Assembly: GCA_946622085.1 (NCBI GenBank)
Contig: CAMOPD010000002.1
Location: 1-41,926 of the forward strand
Source: an uncultured Prevotellaceae bacterium
GTDB lineage: Bacteria; Bacteroidota; Bacteroidia; Bacteroidales; Bacteroidaceae
Direction: 5' to 3'
Length of the DNA: 41,926 nucleotides
Position 1 is the stretch's first letter. Each line of letters begins with the position of its first letter. Positions 3,901 through 27,654 of the stretch are shown piece after piece. Under the pieces are notes generated by a model, which was not told the origin of the DNA, made no database searches, and worked only from the letters and a program-made list of their open reading frames with translations. Both the position numbers and the translations under genes were made by a program.

Positions 3901-6129
3901 TTCGGACGGCCCATCGTCACGGGCGTGAACAGCAACGCCAATCCCCACTACATCGACCAAGACTGCGTCGTATACGATGACCCCGTCAATGCTGACGACT
4001 TCAACGACGACCGCATTGTAGTCCTCAACACCAAGGACAACACCACGACTACACTCTCGCAGGCAGGAGCCAATGCCGACAAGCACATGCGCTCGAAGCG
4101 CGGAAAGCACGAAATCGTGGTCTTCGAGCAGATGAACCGCAAGGTGGAGGGCAGCGAACTCAGCGGCGACGACGACGTGCAGACGGCCAGCCAGCTGGGC
4201 ACCCAGCAGAGCATCATGGCCAGCATGCGCACCGAGGGCGGAGAATGGAAGAACATGACCATCTACAACAATCCCGACATGGCCGATGCCAAACCCATCG
4301 TCACCATTCAGGAGGACGGCCATGCTGCCTGCGTATGGCAGCACGGAGTGATCAGGAAAAACAATTCCGAACTGGTTGCCGACAACGAAATCTTCAACAC
4401 CTATCTCGACGGCAGCCTGGTGCTCTCGGTCTTTGACGGCAACAAGTGGAGCGAGCCCATCGACCTGCATAGGCTCGACGCCTACCACTCGGCAGCACAA
4501 TACGACCTCATGATGCGCAACGACACCGTGCTCGTGGGAGCCAACATCACCGAAAACCTGCTCGACGAGAGTGCACGCGTCACCCTGTTCACCTACGCTT
4601 CGGTGCCCCTTTCCACCAAGAAACCCTCTTACACCAGCGAGTCTATCCGCCCCAAGCGCTTCTTCATGAACAGGGTGGGAGAGCATGCCATCATTACCAT
4701 GCTCTATCAGAAGAACGACACGCTGCGCGACATCTACGTGAAGACGCTCTCCATGAACGGGCGTGGCAACGGGCTGGCCGGCAACGACCTGGGAGTGAAC
4801 TTCTCGTCGCCCGAATTGGTGAAAATCGTGTGCGACCGCTCGGTAGAACGGCTCAACGACTTTGCCATCCTTTGGACCGAAATGAACAACACCGCCCACG
4901 GTGCCGAGGGCACAGGCAAGGACACGGGCAAGACGCGCATGATGCTCAATGCCTCGCGCATAGCCCTCGACCCCACCATGCGCATCACGGCACCCCTCAC
5001 CCTGGGCGCTGAAATCGACGGGCTGAACATGATGGACTTCGACGGATTCCTTGACGACCAGCACATCAAGGCGGTTTATTCTCTCTCCGACGTGGAGACC
5101 GATGAGGCCGTCATCATGGAGAGCGAGCGATACTTCACCAACAGCTTCACCCACGAGGTGGACTACACCAGCACGGCGCTGCTCGGAGGCAGTTCGCTGC
5201 CCGTCGGCATCACCGTGTTCAACACCGGCACGTCGCCCATACGCCACGTCACGGCACACATCAACGAGCAGGCTTATTCCATCGACGACTCCTATGTGCA
5301 GCCTCTGCAGCGCCGCACGTTCGTGCTCGACTATCCCATTACCGACAGCTTCGATGGCTACATCTCGACGAAGGTTGATGTGGAATACGACAACGTGTTC
5401 CGTGCCCAGACTCATGTCCGCCGCAAGAGTCTCAGCCTGACACGTCAGGAAAAGGCCTCAAACAAGCTGCACGTCTCTATGGAGAACATCGAGATGCGAC
5501 TCATTGGGCAGGCCATAGAAGAAGGCAGCAATATGTTCGCCGTTGAGCTGATCGACCATTCCACCAGAGGCATGAACGCTGATTGCGAGGTGCACGTGGG
5601 AGCCTATGCCCATCCGGCCTATCCCGTGCCCGTAGCCGACGATGCGGTGACCGTGGTCAAGGCTTCTCAGTTCCACGACTTCGGAGGCGTGCGCAAGGCC
5701 TATGCCACCATCAAGGTGGGCGGAGTGGCCGAGACAGCCGAGGCTTATCTCGTGGCCCATGTCTACAACACGAAGCTTGAGGGTACGGGCAACTCGCCGC
5801 TGGTGACCAACATGAGCTATAGCGACAACGTGCACTGCGTGGAGCTGCAGCCCAGCAACGACCCCACCGCCATCAACCCCAAGCGCTTCAGCGAGAAGAA
5901 AGCCCTGCTGGGCATCACCATCACCGAAGAGGAAGACGGCGTGCTCATTAGCGGCCTGCCCACCGGCACAGACAAGAGCGGCAAGGATTATCGCATCAGA
6001 GTGTTTGCTTCCAGCGGTGCCGTGGTCTATAGTAAGCCTTCCAGCACCGGGAGCATCTTCGTTCCGCTGAAGAACCACGATGTCTATATGCTCAGCACCG
6101 GTAAGGACATTCTGAAATTCAGGTTCTGA
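916..6129 (+). CDS. giant secreted protein, 1737 aa, unknown function
   Basis: The N-terminus (MKKILSITIIAFVALWGIS...MRAQ) is a Sec signal peptide with cleavage expected near residue 24. I do not recognise a named domain. The N-terminal third looks like successive beta-rich modules. A Gly-rich region at about residues 590-960 contains 'GGGAESGFDWGIPGSFNW' and alternating 'FLELHTPPNPFLHMGAG' and 'GLKVAAGVGYG' stretches, which suggests a beta-rich or barrel-like section. Residues of about 1090-1450 have repeated 'DGNKWSEP'-like segments that recall a beta-propeller. The end (residues about 1660-1737) looks like a degenerate T9SS-type sorting domain: 'YRIRVFASSGAVVYS' and a final 'DILKFRF' strand. 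It shares an operon with the next secreted giant (46-base gap), so both are probably exported to the surface. Confidence 0.75.
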   Translation: MKKILSITIIAFVALWGISTGMRAQNFKLYFANNISDIEDLTTINDGTAKLDWHEVQPGGDVYTNGPEVARVMEMFASTSMKNLPQQQQFWRMRDHSLLCFRINDGLKNNDAYGVEASDGYGKKLNITVSRYFCANMPLQEQPITIRVWKVGEAGDTLTFRYHVHDWNDQNLYIFQLDSKRQADGETYNLEYVLSSIDDEGLTNDEVHTLQLQKNNFQSFYVPADKDLSDVYLSTTATTGNEKAKRLRINKKRLHVGAGTDNDFNFLTLSPTFYLDRHVNRELVNFNWIGSGLFESYDTLYVKLRRSNGMSIKNIEKINVARVDADGNYIPNNQVKYCGYDESREAHKVLTMGNPVYLEILAPGFFPTLYRYPGAADPVSGIVDEERCTAEVIMAPGNAKYADFAISNQHFYGLRDTKKVVVFRGEDHVLCDLEDVDLAGQPATTTIYYYADGGQEGGKLMNGRPIDKYAQLVMTFSKEKGTTQNMQIPELQAYDAESWDEVQTFQSQAEGNSVVVIPVFTYDYYDVKFDLCELELNRECRLHLQTGNGTYEDLPAFLRSKFEREEQSEDADKEVVDEMMGNVTKNDPMKITGGGAESGFDWGIPGSFNWMPKDLDGSKGPRSLRLNLTWDFSITKRCWNFKASLDFTNKFDGDETISQMRQEQKQLRNWNKLKEDGHMFDPDGKAQKWNGIDATIIGNGSAVKMSDWVFKETNDIFALPTPGHSISLGLNVAGFWSLPKTKKDSKTGEQYKTGTKFILSEGGGYFKYAYGLSIPDFMDAISGKLGTPGKWISKYLSKLNLISCGAMWQAGFDLKVSIMNWSAKDELYNADSWGLLATLTGQMKTGAFLELHTPPNPFLHMGAGVRAGLKVAAGVGYGTDFRSHNDVGGLLMGIGVIEAYAFLRSFICTGEARAEYHVGNKLLFPDSDHNPFHKDYPYWAPKASAKTNPLWTPDEETPQGNALWEPQEYDDVVSLPLRAVSKRVRKAIQIPEDTDFGRPIVTGVNSNANPHYIDQDCVVYDDPVNADDFNDDRIVVLNTKDNTTTTLSQAGANADKHMRSKRGKHEIVVFEQMNRKVEGSELSGDDDVQTASQLGTQQSIMASMRTEGGEWKNMTIYNNPDMADAKPIVTIQEDGHAACVWQHGVIRKNNSELVADNEIFNTYLDGSLVLSVFDGNKWSEPIDLHRLDAYHSAAQYDLMMRNDTVLVGANITENLLDESARVTLFTYASVPLSTKKPSYTSESIRPKRFFMNRVGEHAIITMLYQKNDTLRDIYVKTLSMNGRGNGLAGNDLGVNFSSPELVKIVCDRSVERLNDFAILWTEMNNTAHGAEGTGKDTGKTRMMLNASRIALDPTMRITAPLTLGAEIDGLNMMDFDGFLDDQHIKAVYSLSDVETDEAVIMESERYFTNSFTHEVDYTSTALLGGSSLPVGITVFNTGTSPIRHVTAHINEQAYSIDDSYVQPLQRRTFVLDYPITDSFDGYISTKVDVEYDNVFRAQTHVRRKSLSLTRQEKASNKLHVSMENIEMRLIGQAIEEGSNMFAVELIDHSTRGMNADCEVHVGAYAHPAYPVPVADDAVTVVKASQFHDFGGVRKAYATIKVGGVAETAEAYLVAHVYNTKLEGTGNSPLVTNMSYSDNVHCVELQPSNDPTAINPKRFSEKKALLGITITEEEDGVLISGLPTGTDKSGKDYRIRVFASSGAVVYSKPSSTGSIFVPLKNHDVYMLSTGKDILKFRF

Positions 6130-6175: not shown

Positions 6176-9100
6176 ATGAAATCAATGAAGAAGATGTTGG
6201 CCACGTGTGCCCTCTTGGTCATGAGCTGTCTGCAAGGCATGGCCTACACGCAGGTAGAGCGTATTGACGGTCCTACATGGTATGAGGCACGCAGCACGGG
6301 CAGTTCATTCCAGGGCGAAGGCACCAAGACGAGTCCCTACAAGCTCGCTTCGGCTGCCGACCTTGCCAAGCTGTCCTATATAGTAAATAAGGAAAATAAC
6401 GAGTTTGAGGGAAAGTATTTCGCCTTGGAAGCCGATATCGACCTGGGCCAGGAGATTACGGTGGAGGGAGAGTCGCAGAAGCTCAATTGGGTGCCCATAG
6501 GCCAGTTGGGCGCAGCTCCCTTCAAGGGGACGTTTCTCGGTAAGGGACACGTCATTAAGGGGCTGACCATCCGCGTGAGCGTTGCAGAGTACGGCGAGGG
6601 AGCCTTCGGCCTTTTTGGCTGGATGGAGGGCAACGTCGAAGGCGTCACCCTGCAAAATGTCAACATCAGCGGCAGCAGCTCTGCGGGCACCATGATGGGC
6701 GGAATCCTTGGATGTAAGAACCAAAGTGGTATGGTCACTATCAAAGACTGCAAGGTGGACAATGCCGTGATTGGTGGAGGCCGGTTGGGCTATGCTGGCG
6801 GTATTGCCGGATGGGTCCGTGGCTGCACGTTTGTCGGCTGTGTGGCGAAGGTCACTCTGAAGGGCAACTATTGTGGAGGCATCGTGGGAATGATGGACAA
6901 TGCTATAGGACTCAGCGAAGCAGGCTTAACCACCACTATGGAAGACTGTCACAGCGTTGTGGATATACAGATGGAGCCAGAGTCTTTCAGCTATAATCCC
7001 TTTATAGCAGGCGGTTTGTGCGGACATTGCAAATTTGCTGCGAAGGAAGTGGCGAGCAACTGTTCCTCTTCGGGCCACATCACTTCTACCGACTTCCAGG
7101 CGGCTTCTGTCTATATGGGCGGTCTTTTCGGCATTACCAGTAGTGGAATCGTAGAGCGCTGTGTCAGCGCCGTTTGCATAGAGAAAGGTAAGGTGGAAGG
7201 CGGTCTCATAGCGATGGCAAGTCACCCTCTCACCATGAGCGATTGCTTTGCCAGCGGCAACATACACATCACTCAAGATTGCACCGAAGTGGGAGGTCTC
7301 ATAGGCGACTTGAGAGACCAGGGCAACAACCTCTGTGATACCTATTTCACCAACTGCTGGTTTGCCGGAACATTCAGTGGGACTGAAAACATCAACCCTG
7401 GTTCCATGAAATATGGAAGCGTGGTGGGCTTGTGCCAGCCCGACCAGGGGCTCAACGAGAACGATGCGTTCAACGATGTGATTGTTGACAAGAACATGTG
7501 CAACCTGCCCGCCACGTCGTCGGGCGAACTGGAAGGCATTGAGTGGAAAGCCACCAAAGACCTTGTCAGCGACCAGGAAGGCTATGAATATTGCTACACA
7601 CTGCCCCGCGAAAGCATGTTGCTCTATGCCAGCGAGCACGACGGCAAGGAGGTGAGCTTCAAGGACAATTACATCCTGGCATCAGTGCCCTTCCATGTGA
7701 CTGAGGGCAAGAAGAGCATCGCCTATTCCGTGCACTACATCACTACGCCCTTCTCGCTGGCTCCGCTGGTGAGCAATGCCACCAACCACGAGCTGGCCAC
7801 CTATACGCTGCCGCCAAGCCTGTCGAACGTGGTCTACGACGAGAACGACAACACCTTGGTCTATCCCATTGACCCGGGCGAGGCCGATCTCACCGTGAGC
7901 TGCTGCGGACTGACGCGCAAGATTCATCTCAACATTGCGTATGGTCAGGAGTGGAACGACAACGAGGTGTCCGAGATTCTGGCGGGCGACGGAACCCAGG
8001 ACACTCCCTACATGATTCAGAATGCGTCGCAGCTGCTCACGGCCATCGCCGATACCGACCGCAACCGCGAGGGAGTCTATTTCAAGCTGGCCAACGACAT
8101 TTTCCTCAATATCCATCTCATGCAGACCGACGAGACACCACGCAGTGATGCCCGCCAGTGGACGGAGACGGCTGAGTGGAATGCCATCCTCGATGGTGGC
8201 GGACATACCATCTACGGACTGTACGGACGCCGGGGCTTGTTCCACATGCTCTATGGCCACATCTCCGACTTGGCCATCGTTGACTCCTATGTCAAGAGTA
8301 TGATATATCTGACTACTAATAGCTATGGCGGGCTTTTCTGTGGCAAGATTTACGGCGCGGCTACCATCAAGCGTTGTCTGGCCCATGGCTACGTGTATTC
8401 CTTTACAGCGGGTGGTCTCGTTGGTGCCAACAGCGGCAATCAGGCTATCATTGAGGACTGCTTCAGCTGCGTCCATGTGGACAGCTATGCCACGGAAGGT
8501 ATCTCCTCTTCTTCTTCCGGTGGCGGCATCATGGGCGGCGTGGCCGGCACCATTCGTCGCTGCGTCAGCACCAGCATCGTCAAGAACTTTGGCAATCCTA
8601 AGGGCATTGGCAGTGCTGCCCATAGCGAGTGGCCCACGTGCTACTACGACCTGCAGATGATGAACGACGCTCCTATGTGGTCTCAGCGAGATCGTGGCGA
8701 CTGCTCCAACACAACGGAGATGACCCAAGGTGACCTGTTCAGCGATGTTCCCGCCTGGCAACACGAGAAAGGCCGTTACCCCATGCTCCGACAGTTTGCC
8801 AACACGCCCTACGGCGACATCCTTTCCATGCCCGTCTTCTTCGCTGAGGACGACTATGCCGGCAAGGTGAGCCAGATATTTGAGTTCCCCACGGAGAACG
8901 TCACGTGGACGGCCGCTGGCGGGGATACCTATGTAGATGTTGTCAACGAGTGCGGAGCTGCCTCGCCCATGAGCGCAACGCCCAGCAAACAATATGAGTA
9001 CATCTATGCAACCAACAACACCGTGCGCAGCGAGTGCACCAGGGCACTGCGCATCATAGCCATCAACACGCTTCCCGATGGTGTAGTGGGCATCCAGTTC

Positions 9101-10549
9101 AAGGACCCCAAGTGCAAGCAGTCGTGGCTCGAGGTGTTCAAGTCGAGCGTTGGCGAGGTCACTTTGCGCAATGCCGCCACGGCCTCAGTGGCCAACTTCC
9201 GCAGCTTCCGCACCAAGGCCAAGGAGGCGGGCGTGGAGTTCTTCCCCGAAATGCGTTTCTTCGCCGCCATCACTACGCTCAGCGAGGGCATGATTTCGGG
9301 CATTGACCAGCTCAGCGAAGTGCAGCTGCCCAAACAGCTGAAGACCATCAATGCCCGCGCCTTCAACGGCTGCTCGGCCCTGGCGTCGATAGAACTGCCG
9401 GCCACGCTGGGACGCGTGGCCCCGGGAGCACTCGACGGCAGCTCGCTCCGTGAAATCACCGTCAATCCCCACAACGAGGTGTTCGAGGTGCGCAGCAACG
9501 CCCTCTTCACCCAGGGCACTGCCGACCTGGTGGGCTATCCTCCCGGCCGTGGCGAGAGCGAAGTGACCATCAGCGGCCCCATCGGCGAAATCTATAGCCA
9601 TGCCTTCTATCGCATACCACAGCTCGAGGCGGTCTATATTGACAATCCCAAGCCTGACGGCACTGCCGCCATGCTCAGCGACGAGGAATGCTTCGTGCAT
9701 GAAGACGAGGAAAACGGCGGCATGATTGACGTCTACATCAACGACGGCACCTACGACGACACCTACACCGAGAGCAACGGCGGACTCTACGACGGCGTGC
9801 TCATGAAGGAATACATCAGCCAGCCCCTCTGGCGCAGCTATGCACAGACGGGCCACCTGCACCGCTACTTCCCCCTGCAGGTGACCGCCGCCAAGTGGGC
9901 CACGCTCTACATTGGATTCTCCACCCAGCTGCCCAAGGGACTCAAGGCCTACCGCGTGCACAAGACCAGCGACTATCAGTTTGACGAAACCACCACCAGC
10001 GTGGAGCTGAAGCGCATGAACAACCTGCTCCACTACACCACGCCCGTGATTATCCATGCCGAAAAGCCCGGTGTCTATAAGCTCGTGCCCTATGAGGGCA
10101 GTGTGCCCGAAGCGCTGAAGTATGAAAACTGGCTGCAAGGCACCGCCATTGGAGCCGACGGACGTGGAGGCTACAGCTACGGGCTGAGCACCTCGGGGCA
10201 GAGCACCAGCAATAGGGGCAGCATCCTCACGCTGGGCTACAACAGCCAGGGCACGCTGGGATTCTACTACTACAACAACCCCAGCGAGTGGATTCCGCCC
10301 TACAAGGCCTATCTGCCCTATAATGGCAACATGGACTCATCGGCCTCGGCCTTCACTATCTACGTCAACGACGAGATGGACGACGACTTGACCGACGGCA
10401 TCAGCAACGTGCGCAGCCATGGCACCGACGGTCATCAGGTCTACGACTTGCAGGGCCGCCGCATGAACTTCAATCCACGCAACCCGGGAGACCGGCAGCT
10501 GCCGGCTGGCATTTATATCATCGACGGCCGGAAGGTGGTTGTGAAGTAG
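6176..10549 (+). CDS. giant secreted protein with GLUG-like and BspA-type LRR repeats, 1457 aa
   Basis: The signal peptide is MKSMKKMLATCALLVMSCLQGMA. Residues of about 90-400 and 640-860 contain many Gly-rich 'GGIVG', 'GGLVGA' and 'GGLFG' turns spaced 25-40 residues apart, as in GLUG-motif beta-helical surface proteins. Residues of about 1040-1170 hold BspA-type leucine-rich repeats ('LPKQLKTINARAFNGCSAL'). The last residues ('VYDLQGRRMNF...LPAGIYIIDGRKVVVK') form a T9SS-like C-terminal signature. BspA/GLUG proteins of Bacteroidales act in adhesion and host or matrix binding; the exact ligand cannot be read from sequence. It is the last gene of the operon starting at 555, followed by a hairpin repeat. 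Start ATG 6176 is kept, although a second in-frame ATG at 6185 would also give a signal peptide. Confidence 0.8.
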   Translation: MKSMKKMLATCALLVMSCLQGMAYTQVERIDGPTWYEARSTGSSFQGEGTKTSPYKLASAADLAKLSYIVNKENNEFEGKYFALEADIDLGQEITVEGESQKLNWVPIGQLGAAPFKGTFLGKGHVIKGLTIRVSVAEYGEGAFGLFGWMEGNVEGVTLQNVNISGSSSAGTMMGGILGCKNQSGMVTIKDCKVDNAVIGGGRLGYAGGIAGWVRGCTFVGCVAKVTLKGNYCGGIVGMMDNAIGLSEAGLTTTMEDCHSVVDIQMEPESFSYNPFIAGGLCGHCKFAAKEVASNCSSSGHITSTDFQAASVYMGGLFGITSSGIVERCVSAVCIEKGKVEGGLIAMASHPLTMSDCFASGNIHITQDCTEVGGLIGDLRDQGNNLCDTYFTNCWFAGTFSGTENINPGSMKYGSVVGLCQPDQGLNENDAFNDVIVDKNMCNLPATSSGELEGIEWKATKDLVSDQEGYEYCYTLPRESMLLYASEHDGKEVSFKDNYILASVPFHVTEGKKSIAYSVHYITTPFSLAPLVSNATNHELATYTLPPSLSNVVYDENDNTLVYPIDPGEADLTVSCCGLTRKIHLNIAYGQEWNDNEVSEILAGDGTQDTPYMIQNASQLLTAIADTDRNREGVYFKLANDIFLNIHLMQTDETPRSDARQWTETAEWNAILDGGGHTIYGLYGRRGLFHMLYGHISDLAIVDSYVKSMIYLTTNSYGGLFCGKIYGAATIKRCLAHGYVYSFTAGGLVGANSGNQAIIEDCFSCVHVDSYATEGISSSSSGGGIMGGVAGTIRRCVSTSIVKNFGNPKGIGSAAHSEWPTCYYDLQMMNDAPMWSQRDRGDCSNTTEMTQGDLFSDVPAWQHEKGRYPMLRQFANTPYGDILSMPVFFAEDDYAGKVSQIFEFPTENVTWTAAGGDTYVDVVNECGAASPMSATPSKQYEYIYATNNTVRSECTRALRIIAINTLPDGVVGIQFKDPKCKQSWLEVFKSSVGEVTLRNAATASVANFRSFRTKAKEAGVEFFPEMRFFAAITTLSEGMISGIDQLSEVQLPKQLKTINARAFNGCSALASIELPATLGRVAPGALDGSSLREITVNPHNEVFEVRSNALFTQGTADLVGYPPGRGESEVTISGPIGEIYSHAFYRIPQLEAVYIDNPKPDGTAAMLSDEECFVHEDEENGGMIDVYINDGTYDDTYTESNGGLYDGVLMKEYISQPLWRSYAQTGHLHRYFPLQVTAAKWATLYIGFSTQLPKGLKAYRVHKTSDYQFDETTTSVELKRMNNLLHYTTPVIIHAEKPGVYKLVPYEGSVPEALKYENWLQGTAIGADGRGGYSYGLSTSGQSTSNRGSILTLGYNSQGTLGFYYYNNPSEWIPPYKAYLPYNGNMDSSASAFTIYVNDEMDDDLTDGISNVRSHGTDGHQVYDLQGRRMNFNPRNPGDRQLPAGIYIIDGRKVVVK

Positions 10550-10823: not shown

Positions 10824-10855
10824 TTTGGCAGTTCGGGAATAAATGCCTATTTTTG
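10824..10855 (+). promoter_or_regulatory. strong Bacteroidetes promoter for the receiver/PEP-synthase-like gene
   Basis: TTTG at 10824-10827, 20 bases, then TATTTTTG at 10848-10855 is an exact consensus match. The ORF-track start (10843) lies inside this promoter and so cannot be the translation start. Transcription would begin near 10862. Confidence 0.8.
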
Positions 10856-10932
10856 CAGAAATGAAGCGGAGGAGCTTGAGAATCGGCAGTCAGCCTATTC
10901 TCGATGTTTGTATTTCAATTTTTCATCTATCT

Positions 10933-13900
10933 ATGAGCGATTCCAACAAGACACCGCACGAGTGGGAGCGGTTTTATCTAAAAGATGTGTCGTTTGTCAA
11001 TCTGATGACGCGGCGCATCTTTAACGTGCTGATTGTGGCCAACCCCTATGACGCCTTCATGCTGGAGGACGACGGGCGAGTGGACGAGAAGATTTTCGAC
11101 GAGTATATGGAGCTGGGGCTGCGCTATCCGCCCACGTTCACCCAGGTGAGCACCACCGAGGAGGCCTTCGAGGCGCTGAAGACCACCGACATCGACCTCG
11201 TCATCTGCATGCCCGGCAATGCTGACAACGACGCCTTTGCCGTGGCACGCGACGTGAAGGCCGCCTTCCCCAAGATGCCCTGCGTGGTGCTCACGCCCTT
11301 CAGCCATGGCATCACGCGGCGCATGCAGGATGAAGACATGTCGATATTCGACTACGTGTTCTGCTGGTTGGGCAACACCAACATCATCCTCTCGATCATC
11401 AAGCTCATTGAGGACAAGATGAACATTGAGCACGACATCCGCGAGGCGGGCGTGCAGATGATTCTGCTCGTGGAGGACAATATTCGCTTCTACAGCAGCA
11501 TCCTGCCGAGCCTCTACAACTACATACTGATACAGAGCAAGCGCTTCTCTACCGAGGCCCTGAACCCCCACGCCGCAGCACAACGCAAGCGCGGACGCCC
11601 CAAAGTGGTGCTCGCGCGCAGCTACGAGGAGGCCATGGAGTACTACACCCGCTGGGCGGGCAACACGCTGGGCGTGATCAGCGACACGCGCTTCCCCCTC
11701 TCGGCAGGCAGCGACGCCACCAACCCCTCGCTGGAGCGGCGCGGCGTGGAGAGCGACCCCGAGGCCGGACTGAAGCTACTGCGTGCCATCCGTGAGCGCG
11801 ACGAGTTCGTGCCGCTCATCCTGCAGAGCTCCGAAACGGCCAACCGCGCCAAGGCTGAGGCCGAGGGGTTCAGGTTCATTGACAAGAACTCCAAGACCAT
11901 GAATCTGGACCTGCGCCACGTGATGGAGGAGCACATGGGCTTCGGCGACTTCATCTTCCGCGACCCGAAGACCCACGAGGAGGTGGCACGCGTGAGCACA
12001 CTGAAGGAGCTGCAGGACAACATCTTCAAGATTCCCAACGACTCGATGCACTATCACGTGTCGCGCAACCACATGAGCCGCTGGCTCTGCGCCAGGGCCA
12101 TCTTCCCCGTGTCGGCATTCCTGAAGGACGTCACGTGGCATAAGCTGCAGGATGTGGATGCCCACCGCCAGATCATCTTCGATGCCATCGTGCAGTATCG
12201 GCGCATGAAGAACATTGGCATCGTGGCCGTCTTCGACCGCGGTAAGTTCGACCGCTACGCCCATTTCGCCCGCATCGGCGAGGGCTCCCTGGGCGGCAAG
12301 GGGCGCGGACTGGCCTTCCTCGACAATATCATCAAGCGCCACCCGGAGTTCAACCGCTTCGAAGGCGTGGAGGTGAGCATACCCAAGACGGTGGTGCTCT
12401 GCACCGATGTGTTCGACGAGTTCATGGAGGCCAACAACCTCTATCCCATTGCCCTGAGTGATGCCTCGGACGAGGAGATACTGAAGCACTTCCTGCGCGC
12501 CCAGCTCCCCGATGCCTACATAGCCGACTTCTTCACCTTCTTCGAGGCCACCAACTCGCCCATCGCCATACGCTCCTCCAGTCTGCTTGAGGATAGCCAC
12601 TATCAGCCCTTTGCCGGCATCTACAGCACCTACATGATTCCCCATCTCGACGACAAGTACGAGATGCTGCGCATGCTGGCCTGCGCCATCAAGGCCGTCT
12701 ATGCTTCGGTCTACTATAAAGACTCCAAGGCCTATATGACGGCCACCAGCAACGTGATCGACCAGGAGAAGATGGCCGTCATCCTGCAGGAGGTGGTGGG
12801 CAAGCAGCATGGCGACCGCTTCTATCCCAACATGAGCGGCGTGCTGCGCTCGCTCAACTACTATCCCATTGGCGACGAAACGGCCGAGGAAGGCATTGCC
12901 AGCCTGGCCCTCGGACTGGGAAAATACATCGTCGATGGCGGGCAGACGCTGCGCGTCTCGCCCTATCATCCCCACCAGGTGTTGCAGACCAGCGAGATGG
13001 AGACGGCCTTGCGCGAAACTCAGACGCGCTTCTATGCGCTCGACATGAAACATGTGGGCGACGACTTCCAGGTGGACGATGGCTTCAACATACTGAAACT
13101 GAAGGTGAAGGAGGCCGACAAGGATGGCGCGCTGCACTACATCGCTTCCACCTACGACCCCTACGACCAGGTGATTCGCGACGGGCTCTACGAGGGCGGG
13201 CGGAAAATCATTTCGTTTGCCGGAGTGCTGCAGCAGGGCGTGTTCCCGCTGCCCGAGATTCTGCAGATGTCGATGAAATATGGGCAGGAGAGCATGAAGC
13301 GCCCCGTGGAGATAGAGTTTGCATGCAACGTGGAGCCCGACAAGACCGGAGAGTTCTATCTGCTGCAGATAAGACCCATCGTAGACAGCAAGCAGATGCT
13401 CGAGGAGGACGTGGCCGCCATTGCCGACGAGCGGTGCCTGCTGCGCTCGCACAATTCGCTGGGACATGGCATCTCCGAGGACGTGACCGACGTGGTGTAT
13501 GTGAAGACCGACGACAACTTCACTGCCGCCAACAACCCCACGATTGCCGACCACATAGAGCGCATGAACCGCAAGTTCCTCGACGAGGGCAAGAACTACG
13601 TGCTCGTGGGCCCCGGCCGATGGGGCTCGAGCGACTATTGGCTGGGCATACCCGTGAAGTGGCCCCACATATCGGCTGCCCGCGTCATCGTGGAGTCGGG
13701 GCTCAAGAACTATCGCATCGACCCGAGCCAAGGCACCCACTTCTTCCAGAACCTCACGTCATTCGGCGTGGGCTATTTCACCATCAACACGTTCAATGAC
13801 GACGGACTCTTCCGCAAGGAACTGCTCGACAGCATGGAAGCCGTCGAGGAGACCGAGTACGTGCGTCACGTGCGCTTCGACCATCCGCTGAAAATCCTCA

Positions 13901-13947
13901 TGGACGGTAAGAAGCAGGAGGGCGTGGTGCTGCTGCCCGAAGAATAG
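10933..13947 (+). CDS. receiver-like domains fused to PEP-synthase-type nucleotide-binding domain, 1004 aa
   Basis: ATG 10933 (MSDSNKTPHEWERFYLKD) is chosen because the earlier ATG is within the promoter. Residues of about 25-160 form a degenerate receiver fold ('FNVLIVANPYDAF', 'DIDLVICMPG', 'CVVLTPFSHG') lacking the acidic pocket. A second receiver begins at 'ILLVEDN' (about 176) and keeps the acidic pair, a likely phospho-acceptor Asp251 in 'ISDTRFP', a Ser in 'ILQSSE' and a Lys in 'FIDKNS'. A PPDK/PEP-synthase N-terminal domain follows: 'GSLGGKGRG' at 451 and 'AIRSSSLLEDS' near 547, which bind the ATP phosphates. I find no phospho-histidine motif (GGxTSHAA type) and no PEP-binding barrel, so it cannot be a complete PEP synthase. 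The C-terminal 200 residues, with 'VGPGRWGSSDYW', are a domain I do not recognise. The protein is cytoplasmic and lies 38 bases before the deacetylase gene, probably in one operon. Confidence 0.75.
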   Translation: MSDSNKTPHEWERFYLKDVSFVNLMTRRIFNVLIVANPYDAFMLEDDGRVDEKIFDEYMELGLRYPPTFTQVSTTEEAFEALKTTDIDLVICMPGNADNDAFAVARDVKAAFPKMPCVVLTPFSHGITRRMQDEDMSIFDYVFCWLGNTNIILSIIKLIEDKMNIEHDIREAGVQMILLVEDNIRFYSSILPSLYNYILIQSKRFSTEALNPHAAAQRKRGRPKVVLARSYEEAMEYYTRWAGNTLGVISDTRFPLSAGSDATNPSLERRGVESDPEAGLKLLRAIRERDEFVPLILQSSETANRAKAEAEGFRFIDKNSKTMNLDLRHVMEEHMGFGDFIFRDPKTHEEVARVSTLKELQDNIFKIPNDSMHYHVSRNHMSRWLCARAIFPVSAFLKDVTWHKLQDVDAHRQIIFDAIVQYRRMKNIGIVAVFDRGKFDRYAHFARIGEGSLGGKGRGLAFLDNIIKRHPEFNRFEGVEVSIPKTVVLCTDVFDEFMEANNLYPIALSDASDEEILKHFLRAQLPDAYIADFFTFFEATNSPIAIRSSSLLEDSHYQPFAGIYSTYMIPHLDDKYEMLRMLACAIKAVYASVYYKDSKAYMTATSNVIDQEKMAVILQEVVGKQHGDRFYPNMSGVLRSLNYYPIGDETAEEGIASLALGLGKYIVDGGQTLRVSPYHPHQVLQTSEMETALRETQTRFYALDMKHVGDDFQVDDGFNILKLKVKEADKDGALHYIASTYDPYDQVIRDGLYEGGRKIISFAGVLQQGVFPLPEILQMSMKYGQESMKRPVEIEFACNVEPDKTGEFYLLQIRPIVDSKQMLEEDVAAIADERCLLRSHNSLGHGISEDVTDVVYVKTDDNFTAANNPTIADHIERMNRKFLDEGKNYVLVGPGRWGSSDYWLGIPVKWPHISAARVIVESGLKNYRIDPSQGTHFFQNLTSFGVGYFTINTFNDDGLFRKELLDSMEAVEETEYVRHVRFDHPLKILMDGKKQEGVVLLPEE

Positions 13948-17212: not shown

Positions 17213-17887
17213 ATGAAAAAGTATTTAGCAGAAATGGTGGGCACCATGGTGCTCGTGCTCATGGGCTGCGGCGTGGCTGTCAGCCTGGGTTGTGATCCGG
17301 TAAACAACATTCCGGCAGTAGTAGGAACGGCCTTCGCCTTCGGTCTGGCCGTAGTAGCCATGGCTTATACCATCGGTGGCATTTCGGGTTGCCACATCAA
17401 CCCCGCCATCACGCTGGGATGCTATCTCACAGGCCGCATCGATGCCAAGGACTGTGGCATGTATATGCTCTTCCAGTGCATCGGAGCCATCATCGGCTCT
17501 ATTCTGCTCTGGCTCCTCACCAGCAATGTGGAGACGCTGAGCGGCACTGGTGCCAACGACCTGCAGCAGGGCGTGAGTGTGCTGGGTGGTCTGATTGCCG
17601 AAATCATCTTCACCTGCGTCTTCGTGCTCGTGGTGCTCGGTGCCACTGCCAAGACCAACGGTGCTACCAACAACTTTGCCGGTCTGGCCATCGGTCTGAG
17701 CCTGGTGCTGGTTCATCTGGTGTGCATCCGCTACACCGGCACGTCGGTTAACCCCGCCCGCTCCATCGGTCCGGCCCTCTTCCAGGGTGGAAGCGCTCTG
17801 GCCAACCTCTGGATCTTCATCGTGGGCCCGTTCATCGGCGCTGCCTGCGCTGCCTGCATCTGGAAGGCCATCGAACCGCAGAAATAA
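17213..17887 (+). CDS. aqpZ: aquaporin Z
   Basis: This is a 224-residue MIP-family channel of normal AqpZ length with six hydrophobic segments. Both half-helix motifs are intact: 'GCHINPAITLG' (NPA at 63-65) and 'GTSVNPARSIGPAL' (NPA at 180-182). The Arg after the second NPA and the absence of the larger glycerol-facilitator loops favour a water channel (AqpZ) over GlpF. It sits in the inner membrane and equalises water flow during osmotic shifts. It starts 45 bases after a consensus promoter and is followed by a hairpin-T terminator before the sugar transporter gene. The pairing with a sugar transporter may reflect shared osmotic or metabolic control, but that is inference. Confidence 0.93.
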   Translation: MKKYLAEMVGTMVLVLMGCGVAVSLGCDPVNNIPAVVGTAFAFGLAVVAMAYTIGGISGCHINPAITLGCYLTGRIDAKDCGMYMLFQCIGAIIGSILLWLLTSNVETLSGTGANDLQQGVSVLGGLIAEIIFTCVFVLVVLGATAKTNGATNNFAGLAIGLSLVLVHLVCIRYTGTSVNPARSIGPALFQGGSALANLWIFIVGPFIGAACAACIWKAIEPQK

Positions 17888-17908
17888 TGAAGTAAGACAG
17901 CAACATCG

Positions 17909-17956
17909 GGCCTCATCTCCTGGGAGAAGTTACTGGGGGATGAGGCTCCTTTTTTT
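17909..17956 (+). terminator. hairpin plus T-tract between aqpZ and the sugar transporter
   Basis: GGCCTCATC pairs with GATGAGGC(T), an inner CTCC/GGAG pair is possible, and a run of seven T follows. No promoter consensus is visible between it and the next ATG (17968), so it may be leaky or act as an attenuator. Confidence 0.7.
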
Positions 17957-17967
17957 ATGTAGTTATC

Positions 17968-19203
17968 ATGTCCGACTCAAAGCATAAACTGACCACCAAG
18001 GAATATCTCGTTCCTTTTATTCTCATCACCTCGCTCTTCTTCCTCTGGGGTTTTGCCCGCGCCATACTGGACGTGCTCAACAAGCACTTCCAGAACGAAC
18101 TGCACATCAGCATCACCCAGTCGTCGCTCATTCAGGTGACCACCTATCTGGGCTATTTCCTCATGGCCATCCCCGCCGGGCTCTTCATCAATCGCTATGG
18201 CTATCGTCGTGGCGTGGTGTTCGGGCTGCTGCTCTTTGGCATGGGTGCGCTGCTCTTCATCCCCGGGGCCGAGGCCGGCACGTTCTACGCCTTTCTTGGC
18301 GCCCTGTTCATCATCGGCTGTGGGCTCACATTCCTTGAGACGGCTGCCAACCCCTACGTCACCGAGCTGGGTCCCAAGCCCACCTCTACCAGCCGCCTGA
18401 ACTTCTCGCAGTCGTTCAACGGGTTGGGCTGTCTTTTTGCCACCTTTGCCGTGGGGCAGTTTCTTTTCCGCGATTCTTCCGACAGTGGCAATGTGGCCGT
18501 GCCCTACGCCATTCTCGGGGTGCTCGTGCTCGTCATTGCCATGGTGTTTGCGCGCGTCAACCTGCCCGAAATCAAGCACGACGACGGACTGGAGGAGAAG
18601 GCCAAGTATGGGCGCGAACCGCTGCTCAAGATATGGCATCACCGCACGTTTGTCTACGGGTTGATGGCTCTGCTGGCCTATGAGGTGTCGGAGATTTCCA
18701 TCAACAGCTACTTCATCAACTTCGTCACCGGACAGGGCTGGATGACCGACCGCACCGCCTCGATGGTGCTCACGGGCGCGCTGGCCTTCTTCATGGTGGG
18801 CCGCTTCGTGGGCAGCTGGATCATGCAGCGCATCGAGGCTGAGCGCATGCTGTTCATCTGCGGCGTGGGAGCCGTGGCCTGCACCATGACGGTGCTCATG
18901 AATATAGGCACCGTTTCACTTTGCGCCCTGCTGGGCATCTATCTGTTCGAGGCCATCATGTTCCCCACCATCTTCTCGCTTGCCGTGCGAGGGTTGGGCA
19001 GCCTCACCAAGAGCGCGTCCTCCATACTCATGATGACGCCTGTGGGCGGTTGCGGATTCCTGCTCATGAGCGTCGTGGCCGATGCCACCGACCTGGTGGT
19101 GCCCTTCATGATTCCGCTTCTGGGCTATATCGTCGTGGCACTCTTCGGCTTCGGCCTGGTGAACAGTTCCGACAAAGAGGCCAAACGCAAGGCGCAGTCA
19201 TAG
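17968..19203 (+). CDS. FucP-family sugar:proton symporter (MFS), 411 aa
   Basis: The protein has twelve hydrophobic segments and the N-terminal signature 'SLFFLWGFARAILDVLNKHF', typical of the FucP branch of the major facilitator superfamily. 'GLTFLETAANPYVTELGP' carries the Glu used for proton coupling in E. coli FucP, and the Asp of 'AILDVL' matches its second key acid. Bacteroidetes members of this branch transport fucose, glucose, galactose or mannose; the substrate cannot be fixed from sequence. Given the beta-glucan locus downstream, whose final product is glucose, a glucose permease is plausible. It lies 80 bases after aqpZ with a terminator-like hairpin between them and no visible promoter of its own. 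A 14-bp palindrome (TTATTATATAATAA) follows the stop at 19213. Confidence 0.88.
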   Translation: MSDSKHKLTTKEYLVPFILITSLFFLWGFARAILDVLNKHFQNELHISITQSSLIQVTTYLGYFLMAIPAGLFINRYGYRRGVVFGLLLFGMGALLFIPGAEAGTFYAFLGALFIIGCGLTFLETAANPYVTELGPKPTSTSRLNFSQSFNGLGCLFATFAVGQFLFRDSSDSGNVAVPYAILGVLVLVIAMVFARVNLPEIKHDDGLEEKAKYGREPLLKIWHHRTFVYGLMALLAYEVSEISINSYFINFVTGQGWMTDRTASMVLTGALAFFMVGRFVGSWIMQRIEAERMLFICGVGAVACTMTVLMNIGTVSLCALLGIYLFEAIMFPTIFSLAVRGLGSLTKSASSILMMTPVGGCGFLLMSVVADATDLVVPFMIPLLGYIVVALFGFGLVNSSDKEAKRKAQS

Positions 19204-19253
19204 GCCCCCACCTTATTATATAATAAAGCATCGCAAGCTCTGAGGCTATTCGT

Positions 19254-19365
19254 GGTTCAAGGAGTTACAAGGAGTTCAAGGAGTTACAAGGTGTTCTGAG
19301 TTACCAGCTACGAATGACTCTGAACGCCGTGCAACTCCTTGAATCCATGTAACTCCTTGAACCCC
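19254..19365. repeat. inverted repeat built from CAAGGAGTT units
   Basis: The left arm has four near-identical 9-10 bp units (CAAGGAGTTA, CAAGGAGTT and variants), and the right arm (19331-19365) is its reverse complement with few mismatches. The inner part (AGTTACCAGCTACGAATGAC) matches the element at 28798-28946 (GAGTTACGAGCTACGAATGAC on the minus strand), so it is a dispersed repeat rather than a local accident. Confidence 0.75.
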
Positions 19366-19567
19366 TTGTTTGCATTACATAGAGAAAGTTGAGCAGTTTG
19401 GTGTGGGTTCGGCGCAAGAAGAGTGTTGGAATGTTTTTGGAAATGTAATGCTCTTATTGGTGTCTGTGGATAATGATTCGCTCAATAGTTCATCTCCGTC
19501 CATGAGCCCGTTTGAGAAGACTGCCGCACATCCGCTGGATGCTGCCTTCAGAATGACGGTTCTCTTT

Positions 19568-19775
19568 TTGTGAATTTTCTTTACAAAACGGAAGGACAGC
19601 CGTACCTGCTCGACCAGTAAGCACGCCACTCACGATGAGTAAGTGGCGTGCTTACGAGGCGTGAGTGGCGTGCTTACTACCCGTAAGTGGCGTTCTTACT
19701 CCCCTATACTGATTTTCAGCTCTTTACGGAGTCGTTATGCGAGGGCGCAAAAAGTTGTGAATTATTTTTACAAAA
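19568..19775 (-). repeat. 208-bp dispersed element, copy A
   Basis: It is bounded by 21-bp direct repeats (TTGTGAATTNTNTTTACAAAA, 19 of 21 identical). Inside are four palindromic half-sites of GTAAGCACGCCAC type (three GTGGCG[TG/TT]CTTAC forms and one in reverse). The reverse complement aligns without gaps to copy B at 31376-31583, also exactly 208 bp, with about 94% identity over the central 85 bp. Weaker similarity continues outward to a small hairpin at 19813-19828 (GTAGG/CCTAC). No ORF is evident. It may be a MITE-like or protein-binding repeat. Confidence 0.85.
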
Positions 19776-20240
19776 TGGCGAGCGTTTTCGTCGGGCTGTT
19801 CAGAATGCTCATGTAGGGACGCGCCTACGATCGAAGAGAATTGCCGGAACGCTTGTGTTGCATCATGAAGCATGTTTAGCTGAAACCCTTATGATTGGTG
19901 CCTGGTGAAACGACCTGACGGTCTTGCTGCCTGGCCGTCATGCAAGCCCCCCTCTGAGGAGTCTTTCTCAAAGCATCTCGTTTAATATGATTCACAATAG
20001 ATGTTATTGTTTTCCCTGGACACTTTGACGGCTTCCATTGGTTCGTCCGAAGGATGGAAAAGCCCCCTGAAAGGGCTTGAAAAGTGGATAAATGTAGGTT
20101 TTACACCTCTATATTTCGTCCACTCTTTTGCTTTTTGCCGATTTTGCTATAAGGCTGATAATCAGGCGAGTACAGATTTTCTGCCTTTCAAGGAATCCAC
20201 TTTTTCTGTTTTCTGCCAGACAAAGAGTGTTTTTTTCTTT
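19776..20240. other. gene-free spacer before the PUL
   Basis: I see no convincing gene. The short ORFs (73 and 100 aa) overlap repeat sequence or lack protein-like character. A CCCCCTGAAAGGGCTTGAAAAG segment near 20065 and AT-rich sequence lead up to the susC promoter. Confidence 0.5.
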
Positions 20241-20248
20241 TATCTTTG
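20241..20248 (+). promoter_or_regulatory. -7 element (TATCTTTG) of the PUL promoter
   Basis: TATCTTTG matches TAnnTTTG, but the expected -33 TTTG is missing 19-21 bases upstream. A poor -33 fits a promoter that needs an activator, as expected for an inducible PUL. The leader before susC is about 67 bases. Confidence 0.6.
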
Positions 20249-20321
20249 CAATCGGAACCCATTCTGCCGTGAAAACATCTTGAAAAACCATATACATTAT
20301 TAAATAACTAAAAACCAAAGT

Positions 20322-23300
20322 ATGAAAAAAAGCAGGTTACTCATGTTGCTATTGTCGCTCGTGGTGGCAGTGGCATCGCGTGCCCAAAGCATCTCGGGCA
20401 CGGTGACAGACGAACTGGGCGAACCGATTATCGGGGCTTCGGTTGTTGAGAAAGCAAACTCAAAGAACGGAGCGATTACCGATTTCAATGGCCAGTTCAG
20501 CATCAACGTGGCTGCGGGCACGCCCGTAGTCATCAGCTACATCGGCTATGTTTCTCAGGAACTGGCCGCCCGCGACGGCATGACCGTCACGTTGAAGGAA
20601 GACGCTCAGACGCTGAGCGACGTGGTGGTCATTGGCTACGGCGTTCAGAAGAAGAGTGTGGTGACGGCCTCCATTGCCAAGGTGAGCTCCGACGACCTGG
20701 ACGGCAAGACCCGTCTGCGTGCCGAGGATGCCCTGAAGGGCATGGCAGCGGGCGTGAACGTCACGTCGGCCTCGGGCCAGCCGGGAGCCAAGTCGATGAT
20801 TCGCGTGCGCGGTATCGGCACCATCAACGACTCCAATCCTCTCTACATCATCGACGGCATGCCCACCGACCAGGACGGTATGGAGAGCGTCAACCCCAAC
20901 GACATCGAGTCTATTGAGGTGCTCAAGGATGCTGCTTCGGGAGCCATCTACGGAGCCCGTGCCGCCAACGGTGTGATTCTTGTCACCACCAAGAAGGGCA
21001 AGATGGGCAAGGCCTCCATCAACTACAACTTCTCCTATGGCTGGCAGTCGGCCTGGAAGAAGCGCGACGTGACCGGTGCCACCGACTATGCCATACTGCA
21101 GAACGAGCGCCGCGTGCAGAACGGCCTGGCCCCGCTCTATGCCGACCCCTATCATCTGGTCGACGCCAACGGCGATGCCATCAAGGGATTTGGCACCAAC
21201 TGGCAGGAGCTGCTCTTCAACGACAATGCCCCCATTCAGCAGCACGACCTGAGCATCAGCGGTGCCTCAGAGAAGCTGAACTACTATCTTTCGCTCGGCT
21301 ATTTCGACCAGGAAGGAATCGTGGGCGGCAACTACGGACAGTCTAACTATGACCGTCTGACCATCCGCTCGAACAACCAGTACAATCTGTTTGACGCCTC
21401 GAAGGAGCGCAACTTCCTGAACAAGCTCGACATCGGGGCCAACATCTCCTATATGCGCGTGCACAGCACGGGCATCGATGCCAACTCCACCTGGGGCTCA
21501 CCCCTCGGCTCGGCACTCTATCTGGCCCCCACGCTGCCCGTCACGCTGAAGGGCGGCTATGACGCCGACGGCAGGGCCAACATCGGCCAGCGCATGATCG
21601 ACCAATATGCGGCCTACGAGCTCTTCACCGATGCCAACGGCAACCCCTACACTATTCCCAACTTCATTGGCAGCTATCAGGAGCAGAACAACCCCATGGC
21701 CATGATGATGCTCAACCCCACCAAGGGCTGGAGCCACAAGTTCATGCCCAAGTTCTCTATCGACCTGCAGCTGTGGGACCAGCTGAAATATCACTTCACC
21801 TACAGCGCCGAGCTCTCGTTCTGGGGCAACGAAGGAGCCACGCTGCAGAAGTACTACCTCTCGGGCAACAACAATGCCGACCACACCCAGGCCTCGGCCT
21901 ACAAGGGCAACAACACCACGTGGCAGATAGAAAACACGCTGACCTACGACAAGCAGTTCGGCCGTCACACCATCGGCGTGGTGCTCGGACAGAGTGCCCT
22001 GAAGTTCAAGGGCGACGAACTGGGCGGCTCTCACTGGTATCTGGTGAACACCGACAAGCCCTCCATCAACTACACCACGGGCGGCGACATTGAATTCTCT
22101 TACGACGGCGACGGCAAGATGACCGGTGCCAAGAGCCTCGTGGGAGTCTATGGCGGACCCTACGTGGAGCATCGGCTCTCGTCGCTCTTCGCCCGTCTGA
22201 GCTACAACTACGACGAGCGCTACATGCTGCAGGCCACCATCCGCCGCGACGGCAGCAGCCGCTTCGGTTCCAACAATAAGTATGGCACGTTCCCGTCGTT
22301 CTCCTTGGGATGGAACGTGATGAACGAGAAATTCATGGAGCAGACCCGCGACTGGCTCACCAACCTGAAGGTGCGCGCCAGCTGGGGAAAGAACGGTAAC
22401 GACAATATCGGCGACTTTGCCTATACCACGCTGACCGCACTCGGAGCCAGCAGCAACTACTACTTCGGACAGTCGGCCGCCATGGTGTATGGCTCAAAGG
22501 CCAACCGGCTGGCCAACGAAGACCTGAAGTGGGAGGAAAGCGAGCAGACCGACCTGGGACTGGACTTCGGCTTCTGGAACAACCAGCTCACCTTCAGCGT
22601 GGACTACTACATCAAGAAGACCAACGGCATGATTATCGAGATGCCCATCCCGAGCTACGTGGGTGAGGCCCGCCCGCTGGCCAATGTCGGCGACATGGAG
22701 AACAGCGGCTGGGAGTTTGAACTGGGCTACAAGTGGAACATCGCCGACGCCCACTTCGCCGTGAAGGGCAACGCCTCCTACCTGAAGAACAAGCTGAAGA
22801 ACCTGGGCAACGACACGGGATTCCTGAACTACGGCATCTCGCAGTTCAGCGACGGCGGCACACGCGCCGAGAACGGTCAGCCCTTCCCCTTCTTCTATGG
22901 CTACAAGACCGACGGCATCTTGCAGAATCAGGCTGAGGCCGATGCCTACAACTCAAAATATGGCACGTCGTCGAAGCCCGGCGACTTCCGCTTCGTCGAC
23001 ACCAACGGCGACAACACCATCACCAGCGACGACCGCACCAACATCGGCAACGGAGTGCCCGACTGGACCTTCGGACTGAACCTGGATGCCGAGTGGAAAG
23101 GCTTCGACCTGAGCCTCTTCTTCCAGGGAGTGAGCGGAGCCGACGTGTTCGACGCCACCTATCGCCAGGACATCGCCTCGGGCAACTATCCCACCTGGGT
23201 GCTCAACCGCTGGACCGGCGAGGGAACCTCCAACACCGTGCCCACGCTGGGCGACTCGAAAAACTGGGTGGTCAGCGATATGTATATACAAGACGGCAGC

Positions 23301-23531
23301 TACCTGCGCCTGAAGAATGTCACGCTGGGCTACACGCTGCCCCACAACCTGACCAACCGCATCGGCATCAGCCGCCTGCGCATCTTCGGCAGGGCTGAAA
23401 ACCTTCTCACGTGGACCAAGTATTGGGGCTTCGACCCGGAAATAGGTTCCGGCTCCACCAGTCTCGGTGTCGACTATGGCGTCTATCCGCAGGCCCGTAC
23501 CTACACCATTGGATTCAACATTTCACTTTAA
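20322..23531 (+). CDS. susC: SusC-like TonB-dependent outer-membrane transporter, 1069 aa
   Basis: The signal peptide (MKKSRLLMLLLSLVVAVASRAQ) is followed by a carboxypeptidase-regulatory-like beta domain ('SISGTVTDELGEPIIGASVV', residues about 23-95), which is typical of SusC proteins. Next come the 'VVVIGYGVQKK' TonB-box-like segment and the plug domain ('IRVRGIGTINDSNPLYIIDG', 'ANGVILVTTKKGK', about 110-225), then a 22-strand barrel with characteristic motifs such as 'RDGSSRFGSNNKYGTFPS' and a C-terminal 'TIGFNISL' strand. Length and architecture are normal. With SusD it forms the TonB-energised pore that imports glycan fragments into the periplasm. Substrate assignment to beta-glucan rests on the GH16 and GH3 genes downstream. 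It is the first gene of the PUL. Confidence 0.95.
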   Translation: MKKSRLLMLLLSLVVAVASRAQSISGTVTDELGEPIIGASVVEKANSKNGAITDFNGQFSINVAAGTPVVISYIGYVSQELAARDGMTVTLKEDAQTLSDVVVIGYGVQKKSVVTASIAKVSSDDLDGKTRLRAEDALKGMAAGVNVTSASGQPGAKSMIRVRGIGTINDSNPLYIIDGMPTDQDGMESVNPNDIESIEVLKDAASGAIYGARAANGVILVTTKKGKMGKASINYNFSYGWQSAWKKRDVTGATDYAILQNERRVQNGLAPLYADPYHLVDANGDAIKGFGTNWQELLFNDNAPIQQHDLSISGASEKLNYYLSLGYFDQEGIVGGNYGQSNYDRLTIRSNNQYNLFDASKERNFLNKLDIGANISYMRVHSTGIDANSTWGSPLGSALYLAPTLPVTLKGGYDADGRANIGQRMIDQYAAYELFTDANGNPYTIPNFIGSYQEQNNPMAMMMLNPTKGWSHKFMPKFSIDLQLWDQLKYHFTYSAELSFWGNEGATLQKYYLSGNNNADHTQASAYKGNNTTWQIENTLTYDKQFGRHTIGVVLGQSALKFKGDELGGSHWYLVNTDKPSINYTTGGDIEFSYDGDGKMTGAKSLVGVYGGPYVEHRLSSLFARLSYNYDERYMLQATIRRDGSSRFGSNNKYGTFPSFSLGWNVMNEKFMEQTRDWLTNLKVRASWGKNGNDNIGDFAYTTLTALGASSNYYFGQSAAMVYGSKANRLANEDLKWEESEQTDLGLDFGFWNNQLTFSVDYYIKKTNGMIIEMPIPSYVGEARPLANVGDMENSGWEFELGYKWNIADAHFAVKGNASYLKNKLKNLGNDTGFLNYGISQFSDGGTRAENGQPFPFFYGYKTDGILQNQAEADAYNSKYGTSSKPGDFRFVDTNGDNTITSDDRTNIGNGVPDWTFGLNLDAEWKGFDLSLFFQGVSGADVFDATYRQDIASGNYPTWVLNRWTGEGTSNTVPTLGDSKNWVVSDMYIQDGSYLRLKNVTLGYTLPHNLTNRIGISRLRIFGRAENLLTWTKYWGFDPEIGSGSTSLGVDYGVYPQARTYTIGFNISL

Positions 23532-23563
23532 TCACAGACATCAGTAATTAGAAATCTATCATT

Positions 23564-25114: not shown

Positions 25115-25156
25115 AATCCCCCCCTCATCACTTTAACACATTAATATTATATATAT

Positions 25157-27604: not shown

Positions 27605-27654
27605 ACAGTTCTTAACATTTCAAACAACGATTACATTTTAAACAATCAATAGCA

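Follow-up and report, generated by a model that had tools for sequence, protein, structure and literature searches.

A core Bacteroidales gene annotated as PEP synthase encodes a receiver-bearing ATP-grasp protein that is probably a dedicated controller of glutamate dehydrogenase

The bacterial proteins GarA and OdhI regulate glutamate dehydrogenase (GDH) by binding, and GlnE and GlnD control glutamine synthetase. GDH forms the junction of ammonia and carbon skeletons in the Bacteroidales, the dominant order of gut and rumen. PpsA and PpdK, enzymes of a different kind, are built around a PPDK_N ATP-grasp domain with conserved Lys, Arg, Glu, Gln and Arg residues. Here we describe a gene of an uncultured Prevotellaceae bacterium, found in a stretch of 41,926 nt that was analysed as a whole (the window), whose product shares this ATP-grasp with PpsA and PpdK but differs from both in having no phospho-histidine or PEP/pyruvate domain, in ending with a C-terminal domain of its own and in carrying tandem receivers in front. 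Current annotation labels the gene product either a PEP synthase or a protein with a 'PEP/pyruvate-binding domain'.

The gene occupies positions 10933..13947 of the window on the + strand and encodes 1004 aa, arranged as receiver 1, receiver 2, linker, PPDK_N and a new C-terminal domain. The ORF containing it spans 10843-13947 (+), with a possible upstream start at 10843; the alignments of relatives begin mostly at residue 31 of this ORF, so that 10933 is the likely start, and the Met at this position is residue 1 in our numbering. An AlphaFold2 model of the whole protein, computed with 64 relatives (pLDDT 85.8, pTM 0.81), showed, from N- to C-terminus, a pair of complete (beta-alpha)5 receivers, then a helical linker, then the ATP-grasp and finally an alpha/beta C-terminal domain. 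Pfam recognized PPDK_N (PF01326, E 1.3e-42) and, below threshold, Response_reg at the position of receiver 1 (E 0.0067). As a single sequence searched against the PDB, the 1004-aa protein gave nearly no matches; a 64-member profile matched the ATP domains of PEP synthase and rifampin phosphotransferase, together with response-regulator receivers, and the best Foldseek matches in the PDB were rifampin phosphotransferase (E 1e-11), PPDK and the tandem receivers of PleD and 3luf. Across the 64 relatives (identity down to 36%), residues E181, D251, K318, K456, R547, E793, E795, Q812, R896, D901, E921 and H936 are invariant, and conservation is 90% or higher at D182, S299 and R814. A preliminary description made from the letters of the DNA had proposed this layout, with a degenerate receiver, an intact one, PPDK_N and a C-terminal domain, and had suggested structure prediction as a check; Pfam, AlphaFold2, Foldseek and the conservation among the 64 relatives all bear it out, the predicted structure comprising two complete receivers and an ATP-grasp like that of rifampin phosphotransferase. 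A role in anti-phage defence was also considered and set aside, the protein having no PADLOC match.

Receiver 1 (residues 31-172; 11023..11448, + strand), delimited by the AlphaFold2 fold, Foldseek and the alignment columns, is indeed degenerate: these columns lack an acidic pair or pocket, and the acceptor position has no conserved Asp, yet the (beta-alpha)5 fold is predicted. By profile it matches the PorX structure 8ted, and in the paralogues of another locus (L112) the Response_reg match at this position exceeds the curated cut-off. Receiver 2 (residues 176-334; 11458..11934, + strand) has the full acidic pocket ascribed to it at the outset, and combines the residues expected of a response regulator, namely the acidic pair E181/D182, the acceptor D251 (codon 11683-11685), S299 and K318, with a (beta-alpha)5 fold in which D251 closes beta3 and K318 directly follows strand 5. 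This residue pattern suggests that receiver 2 can be phosphorylated at D251. The helical linker that follows (residues 340-430; 11950..12222, + strand) was delimited by AlphaFold2 and overlaps a weak DUF5752 region (E 0.038 in the window protein; 7.9e-6, above the cut-off, in an L112 paralogue); this domain of unknown function may represent a separate regulatory module in the linker of the L112 paralogues. At L112 and at a second locus, L113, the gene occurs as two tandem copies, each with a GDH of its own, and the space between them holds genes for a PAS histidine kinase and a LuxR-type response regulator. The kinase and the regulator are a possible cognate signalling pair; a histidine kinase was seen beside the gene at these two loci only.

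The PPDK_N ATP-grasp (residues 445-815; 12265..13377, + strand) contains all of the expected catalytic residues, in agreement with the ATP-binding domain that had been read from its GSLGGKG and AIRSSS motifs: K456 and R547 lie within these two motifs and are joined by E793/E795, Q812 and R814. K456, R547, E795 and Q812 are invariant across all three forms of the family described below, and R814 is found in all aligned rows but one. They correspond to K22, R92, E323, Q335 and R337 of Clostridium PPDK, the residues which that enzyme needs for ATP binding and phosphoryl transfer, by a mapping that uses the Pfam alignment and motifs rather than a bound structure.

The C-terminal domain (residues 816-1004, ~190 aa; 13378..13944, + strand) is marked by an invariant GRWG..D motif (R896, D901), by E921 and by SxGxHFF (H936, codon 13738-13740). 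Modelled alone with 70 relatives, divergent forms included, it was predicted by AlphaFold2 with high confidence (pLDDT 92.3, pTM 0.90). Foldseek returned no meaningful match to this model (best probability 0.28 in the PDB and 0.60 in BFVD; TM by query length at most 0.33), and a sequence search of the domain against the PDB found no relative, so that a domain left unrecognized in the preliminary description still has no counterpart after the PDB and BFVD fold search. A hidden phospho-histidine domain in this part of the protein was ruled out by the fold search; the invariant H936 is nonetheless present. Judged by the polar invariants R896, D901, E921 and H936, the domain looks like one that holds an active site.

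This is a core gene of the Bacteroidales and not a peculiarity of one genome, being present in 171/198 genomes of the order. In a phylum-wide sample we found it in 49/297 genomes, with a patchy distribution in other Bacteroidia, and it was common (33/61) in a second class within the sample. Outside the Bacteroidota the search covered plasmids, on which the ATP-grasp half alone occurs in Deinococcus and Pseudoalteromonas; a locus in genome G238 (genus g2) had no DNA match to named plasmid records. The family comprises three forms that share the ATP-grasp and C-terminal core, with the same core residues in all three: a full form of ~1000 aa with receivers, a receiver-less short form of ~580 aa, and a long form of ~1060 aa. 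The N-terminal region of the long form has no Pfam match and looks GAF-like by eye, and a C-terminal nucleotidyltransferase domain was found in both members scanned. Genes for the short and the 1060-aa forms can overlap within one operon: at three loci (L114, L115 and L125) a 580-aa receiver-less relative overlaps a 1060-aa relative by a few bases, the latter ending at L115 in a nucleotidyltransferase domain that bears the motif GS...GSDIDL.

Relatives of the gene were recurrently accompanied by ORFs of 428-453 aa, which homology search identified as GDH and which are annotated gdhA in Parabacteroides, 166 bp from the gene. Among 48 non-Prevotella Bacteroidota genomes (the window's own genome left out, GDH positions taken from PF00208), a GDH gene was no more than 3 kb away from 42/49 relatives of the full-length, 9/11 of the short and 7/11 of the long form. 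Given about two GDH genes per genome, such proximity is expected by chance for ~0.4% of genes, which yields a binomial P of ~1e-92 for the full form in a calculation that ignores phylogeny. The association also holds in reverse, as a relative lies within 3 kb of 72 of the 98 stronger GDH matches, and the linkage joins a single relative to each GDH gene. GDH is positioned directly upstream on the same strand in 36 of the linked relatives; same-strand, convergent and divergent arrangements all occur, and the linkage is therefore not one frozen operon. The many families represented among the linked genomes, and the changes in orientation, speak for repeated selection. No other recurrent partner was comparable (HisG came next, with 5 of 55 neighbours scanned), and PF00391 genes, used as a negative control, were not found near relatives.

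The linkage extends to Phocaeicola and to several Prevotella, and is looser in the Bacteroidales, in which GDH was detected within 3 kb in 11/57 genomes (P ~1e-15); in Prevotella, GDH lay within ~8 kb at 15/47 loci. In most sampled Bacteroidales and Prevotella genomes the two genes are apart. The 41.9-kb window itself contains no GDH gene; in this genome, which is 73% complete, GDH is located on another contig (C104, partial match at 7144-7410). Genomes that do not have the gene usually still have GDH, which therefore does not generally depend on it. Within the Bacteroidales, a second GDH accompanied presence of the gene (44/57 genomes with the gene vs 0/20 without, P 4e-10), a contrast that is phylogenetically confounded, since the gene-bearing genomes were chosen among the closest relatives, and that does not serve as main evidence.

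The strongest evidence for a specific partnership comes from the pairing of paralogues with GDH subtypes. A FastTree phylogeny built from 63 relatives that adjoin a GDH gene shows 11 changes in the subtype of that GDH, as compared with 31.4 in shuffled data (0/200 shufflings as low); this clustering is inflated by near relatives, an effect that leaves tandem pairs within one genome untouched. Tandem copies of one genome fall into separate clades according to their own GDH. GDH II, ~35% identical to GDH I, is the neighbour of one clade of full forms, of the short forms and of the 1060-aa forms. The link to GDH has therefore survived duplication as well as a change of GDH class.

Downstream of our gene, the gene at window 13986-15131 matches only the C-terminal (PIG-L) part of PRK02122, a glucosamine-6-phosphate deaminase-like model (positions 284-652 of 653), and its N-terminal part is missing. 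As a conserved partner this PIG-L gene was rejected, because a 377-396 aa version lies within 1.5 kb downstream in just 12/73 Prevotella loci with enough flank. Upstream, a 1457-aa protein with BspA-type leucine-rich repeats is encoded at window 6176-10549, preceded by a 1737-aa ORF (window 916-6129) that has no Pfam match. Window 17213-28764 is a probable beta-glucan utilisation locus: it encodes aquaporin-like and fucose-permease-like transporters, followed by SusC and SusD as a pair, an 815-aa ORF to which no NCBIfam model matched and a glucanase-like protein whose best match is EglC.

A functional link between this gene family and GDH is very probable. Since relatives adjoin GDH genes far above chance, the protein is probably a dedicated controller of GDH, and on balance we regard it as a two-component-controlled, ATP-dependent regulatory partner of that enzyme. 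The preliminary description had offered a phosphorylation-controlled, nucleotide-dependent kinase or sensor of central metabolism: the conserved residues of receiver 2 and of the ATP-grasp are consistent with the first two attributes, while the target was a guess that the gene neighbourhood narrows to a specific partner, GDH, which was out of view of that description since the window holds no GDH gene. In the mechanism that we propose, a histidine kinase responding to nitrogen or carbon status would phosphorylate D251, and this would alter the contact of receiver 2 and the linker with the ATP-grasp/C-terminal core. The core would then switch GDH activity, most likely by an ATP-dependent modification (phosphoryl transfer, perhaps via the invariant H936) or, as an alternative output, by nucleotide-gated binding to GDH. 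The receiver-less forms and those with sensor and nucleotidyltransferase domains would perform the same task for the second GDH class in response to other inputs. Linkage cannot tell regulation of GDH from a shared pathway. We lean slightly towards control of GDH activity over another step of glutamate metabolism, and covalent modification, as opposed to binding, is a tentative suggestion. Similarly speculative is the broadest form of the proposal, a new class of regulators in which a PPDK_N ATP-grasp joined to a C-terminal domain of unseen fold switches GDH covalently and reversibly under two-component control, with regulator and GDH paralogues paired one to one throughout the family in Bacteroidota, and which would underlie the old observation that a neighbouring gene is needed for GDH activity in Bacteroides. 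Some Prevotella GDH genes work in E. coli unaided, which counts against a regulator.

The annotation itself provides one alternative, a variant PEP synthase that obtains the domains it lacks from a second gene. It draws on the presence of PPDK_N and on the best NCBIfam match, which is a PEP synthase model; the PEP synthase scores, however, reach 32-56 bits against cut-offs of 740-883 bits. Neither PEP-utilizers nor PEP-utilizers_C was matched in the protein by Pfam or NCBIfam, the PEP/pyruvate TIM-barrel has no Pfam match past residue 831, where no sequence room is left for it, and both fold prediction and fold search set the C-terminal domain apart from the swivelling domain. In the genomes of 32 relatives, PF00391 was found only in ORFs as large as an ordinary PPDK (911-976 aa) or PTS enzyme I (~590 aa) and in a few others, none of them forming an adjacent subunit, and a single-contig genome (G451) encodes the protein and has zero PF00391 matches. 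The protein is thus not a PEP synthase, since it has neither the phospho-histidine nor the PEP domain and its relatives encode no such domain close by, and the two-gene variant is extremely improbable. Both the absence of these domains and the doubt about PEP synthase had been voiced in the preliminary description, and its proposed search for a separate PEP-utilising subunit beside the orthologues came back empty.

The linkage to GDH could reflect a shared pathway if the protein were an enzyme of glutamate/2-oxoglutarate metabolism, a receiver-controlled ATP-dependent phosphotransferase or ligase of a GDH-related small molecule, as the full ATP-grasp catalytic set, the active-site-like C-terminal domain and the small-molecule substrates of PPDK_N relatives (rifampin phosphotransferase, the best fold match, and the prodigiosin ligase PigC, among the NCBIfam matches) would allow; but the one-to-one pairing of paralogues with GDH subtypes is easier to reconcile with a protein partner than with a metabolite, no further pathway gene recurs alongside, and the receiver and sensor modules of the full and long forms suggest control, which makes such an enzyme rather unlikely. 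We give similarly limited credence to a catalytically inert sensor, in which the ATP-grasp would sense ATP/ADP and the protein would sequester or activate GDH by binding: the established GDH regulators GarA and OdhI work in this manner, and no second catalytic (phospho-histidine) domain is recognisable, but the phosphoryl-transfer residues E795, Q812 and R814 are retained in all three forms, as are the polar invariants R896, D901, E921 and H936 of the C-terminal domain. Finally, the receivers, and the histidine kinase and LuxR-type regulator between the tandem copies at L112 and L113, could point to regulation of gdh expression, for instance through two-component partners, and not of GDH itself; no domain for binding DNA or RNA was found in the protein, however, an ATP-grasp and a C-terminal domain of this kind would be unusual for that role, and a report from 1996 is said to have found gdhA transcription unaffected, so that we consider this improbable.

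The title of that report, as cited in PMC4539542, refers to trans-acting gene(s) that affect GDH activity and lie downstream of gdhA in B. thetaiotaomicron (Baggio and Morrison 1996). The work reportedly described a 3-kb complementing segment, which is as long as the gene studied here. In two genomes of a different genus belonging to the same family, the gene sits downstream of gdh in convergent orientation, at distances of 85 and 298 bp. The 1996 trans-acting gene possibly belongs to the family described here. BT_1971, whose locus number would place it close to GDH, is a catalase, and this counts against the identity. No experiment on the protein was found in a literature search, which also yielded nothing of use on either the family or BT_1970, BT_1972 and BT_1973; a paper on bile fitness in B. 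fragilis contained nothing on GDH. In P. ruminicola 23, NADP-GDH activity and the gdhA transcript both increase with ammonium (PMC5552732), data that are compatible with post-translational control or its absence and neither support nor exclude it. How GDH activity is controlled in the Bacteroidales has been a standing question since the 1996 report of trans-acting gene(s) at gdhA, and a candidate with a mapped acceptor Asp, an ATP site and a catalytic-looking domain makes it directly testable; the annotation of a core gene would, in addition, be corrected in a great many genomes.

Among described systems, the closest in fold are rifampin phosphotransferase (5hv1) and HpeI (9goj), the best PDB fold matches, both over the ATP-grasp. 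The match is approximately the size of that domain, the NCBIfam model RIF_Ptrans_rph scores 16.6 bits against a cut-off of 999, and the rifampin-binding and phospho-histidine domains of rifampin phosphotransferase are absent from the window protein. Response regulators of the PleD type likewise have two tandem receivers of which one is degenerate, but their output is GGDEF, in place of PPDK_N and a new C-terminal domain, and in the window protein it is the first receiver that is degenerate. PorX, from the same phylum, also fuses a receiver to an enzymatic output that does not bind DNA, in its case the different domain PglZ. The 1996 trans-acting gene is a candidate match to the family by its position at gdh, its phylum and a reported size of ~3 kb. 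With GarA/OdhI and GlnE/GlnD the protein has no FHA domain in common and no sequence relation that we could find, and the nucleotidyltransferase domain that recalls GlnE/GlnD is carried by its 1060-aa relatives and not by the window protein; what would unite them is the proposed role of a dedicated controller that acts on a nitrogen enzyme in response to a signal.
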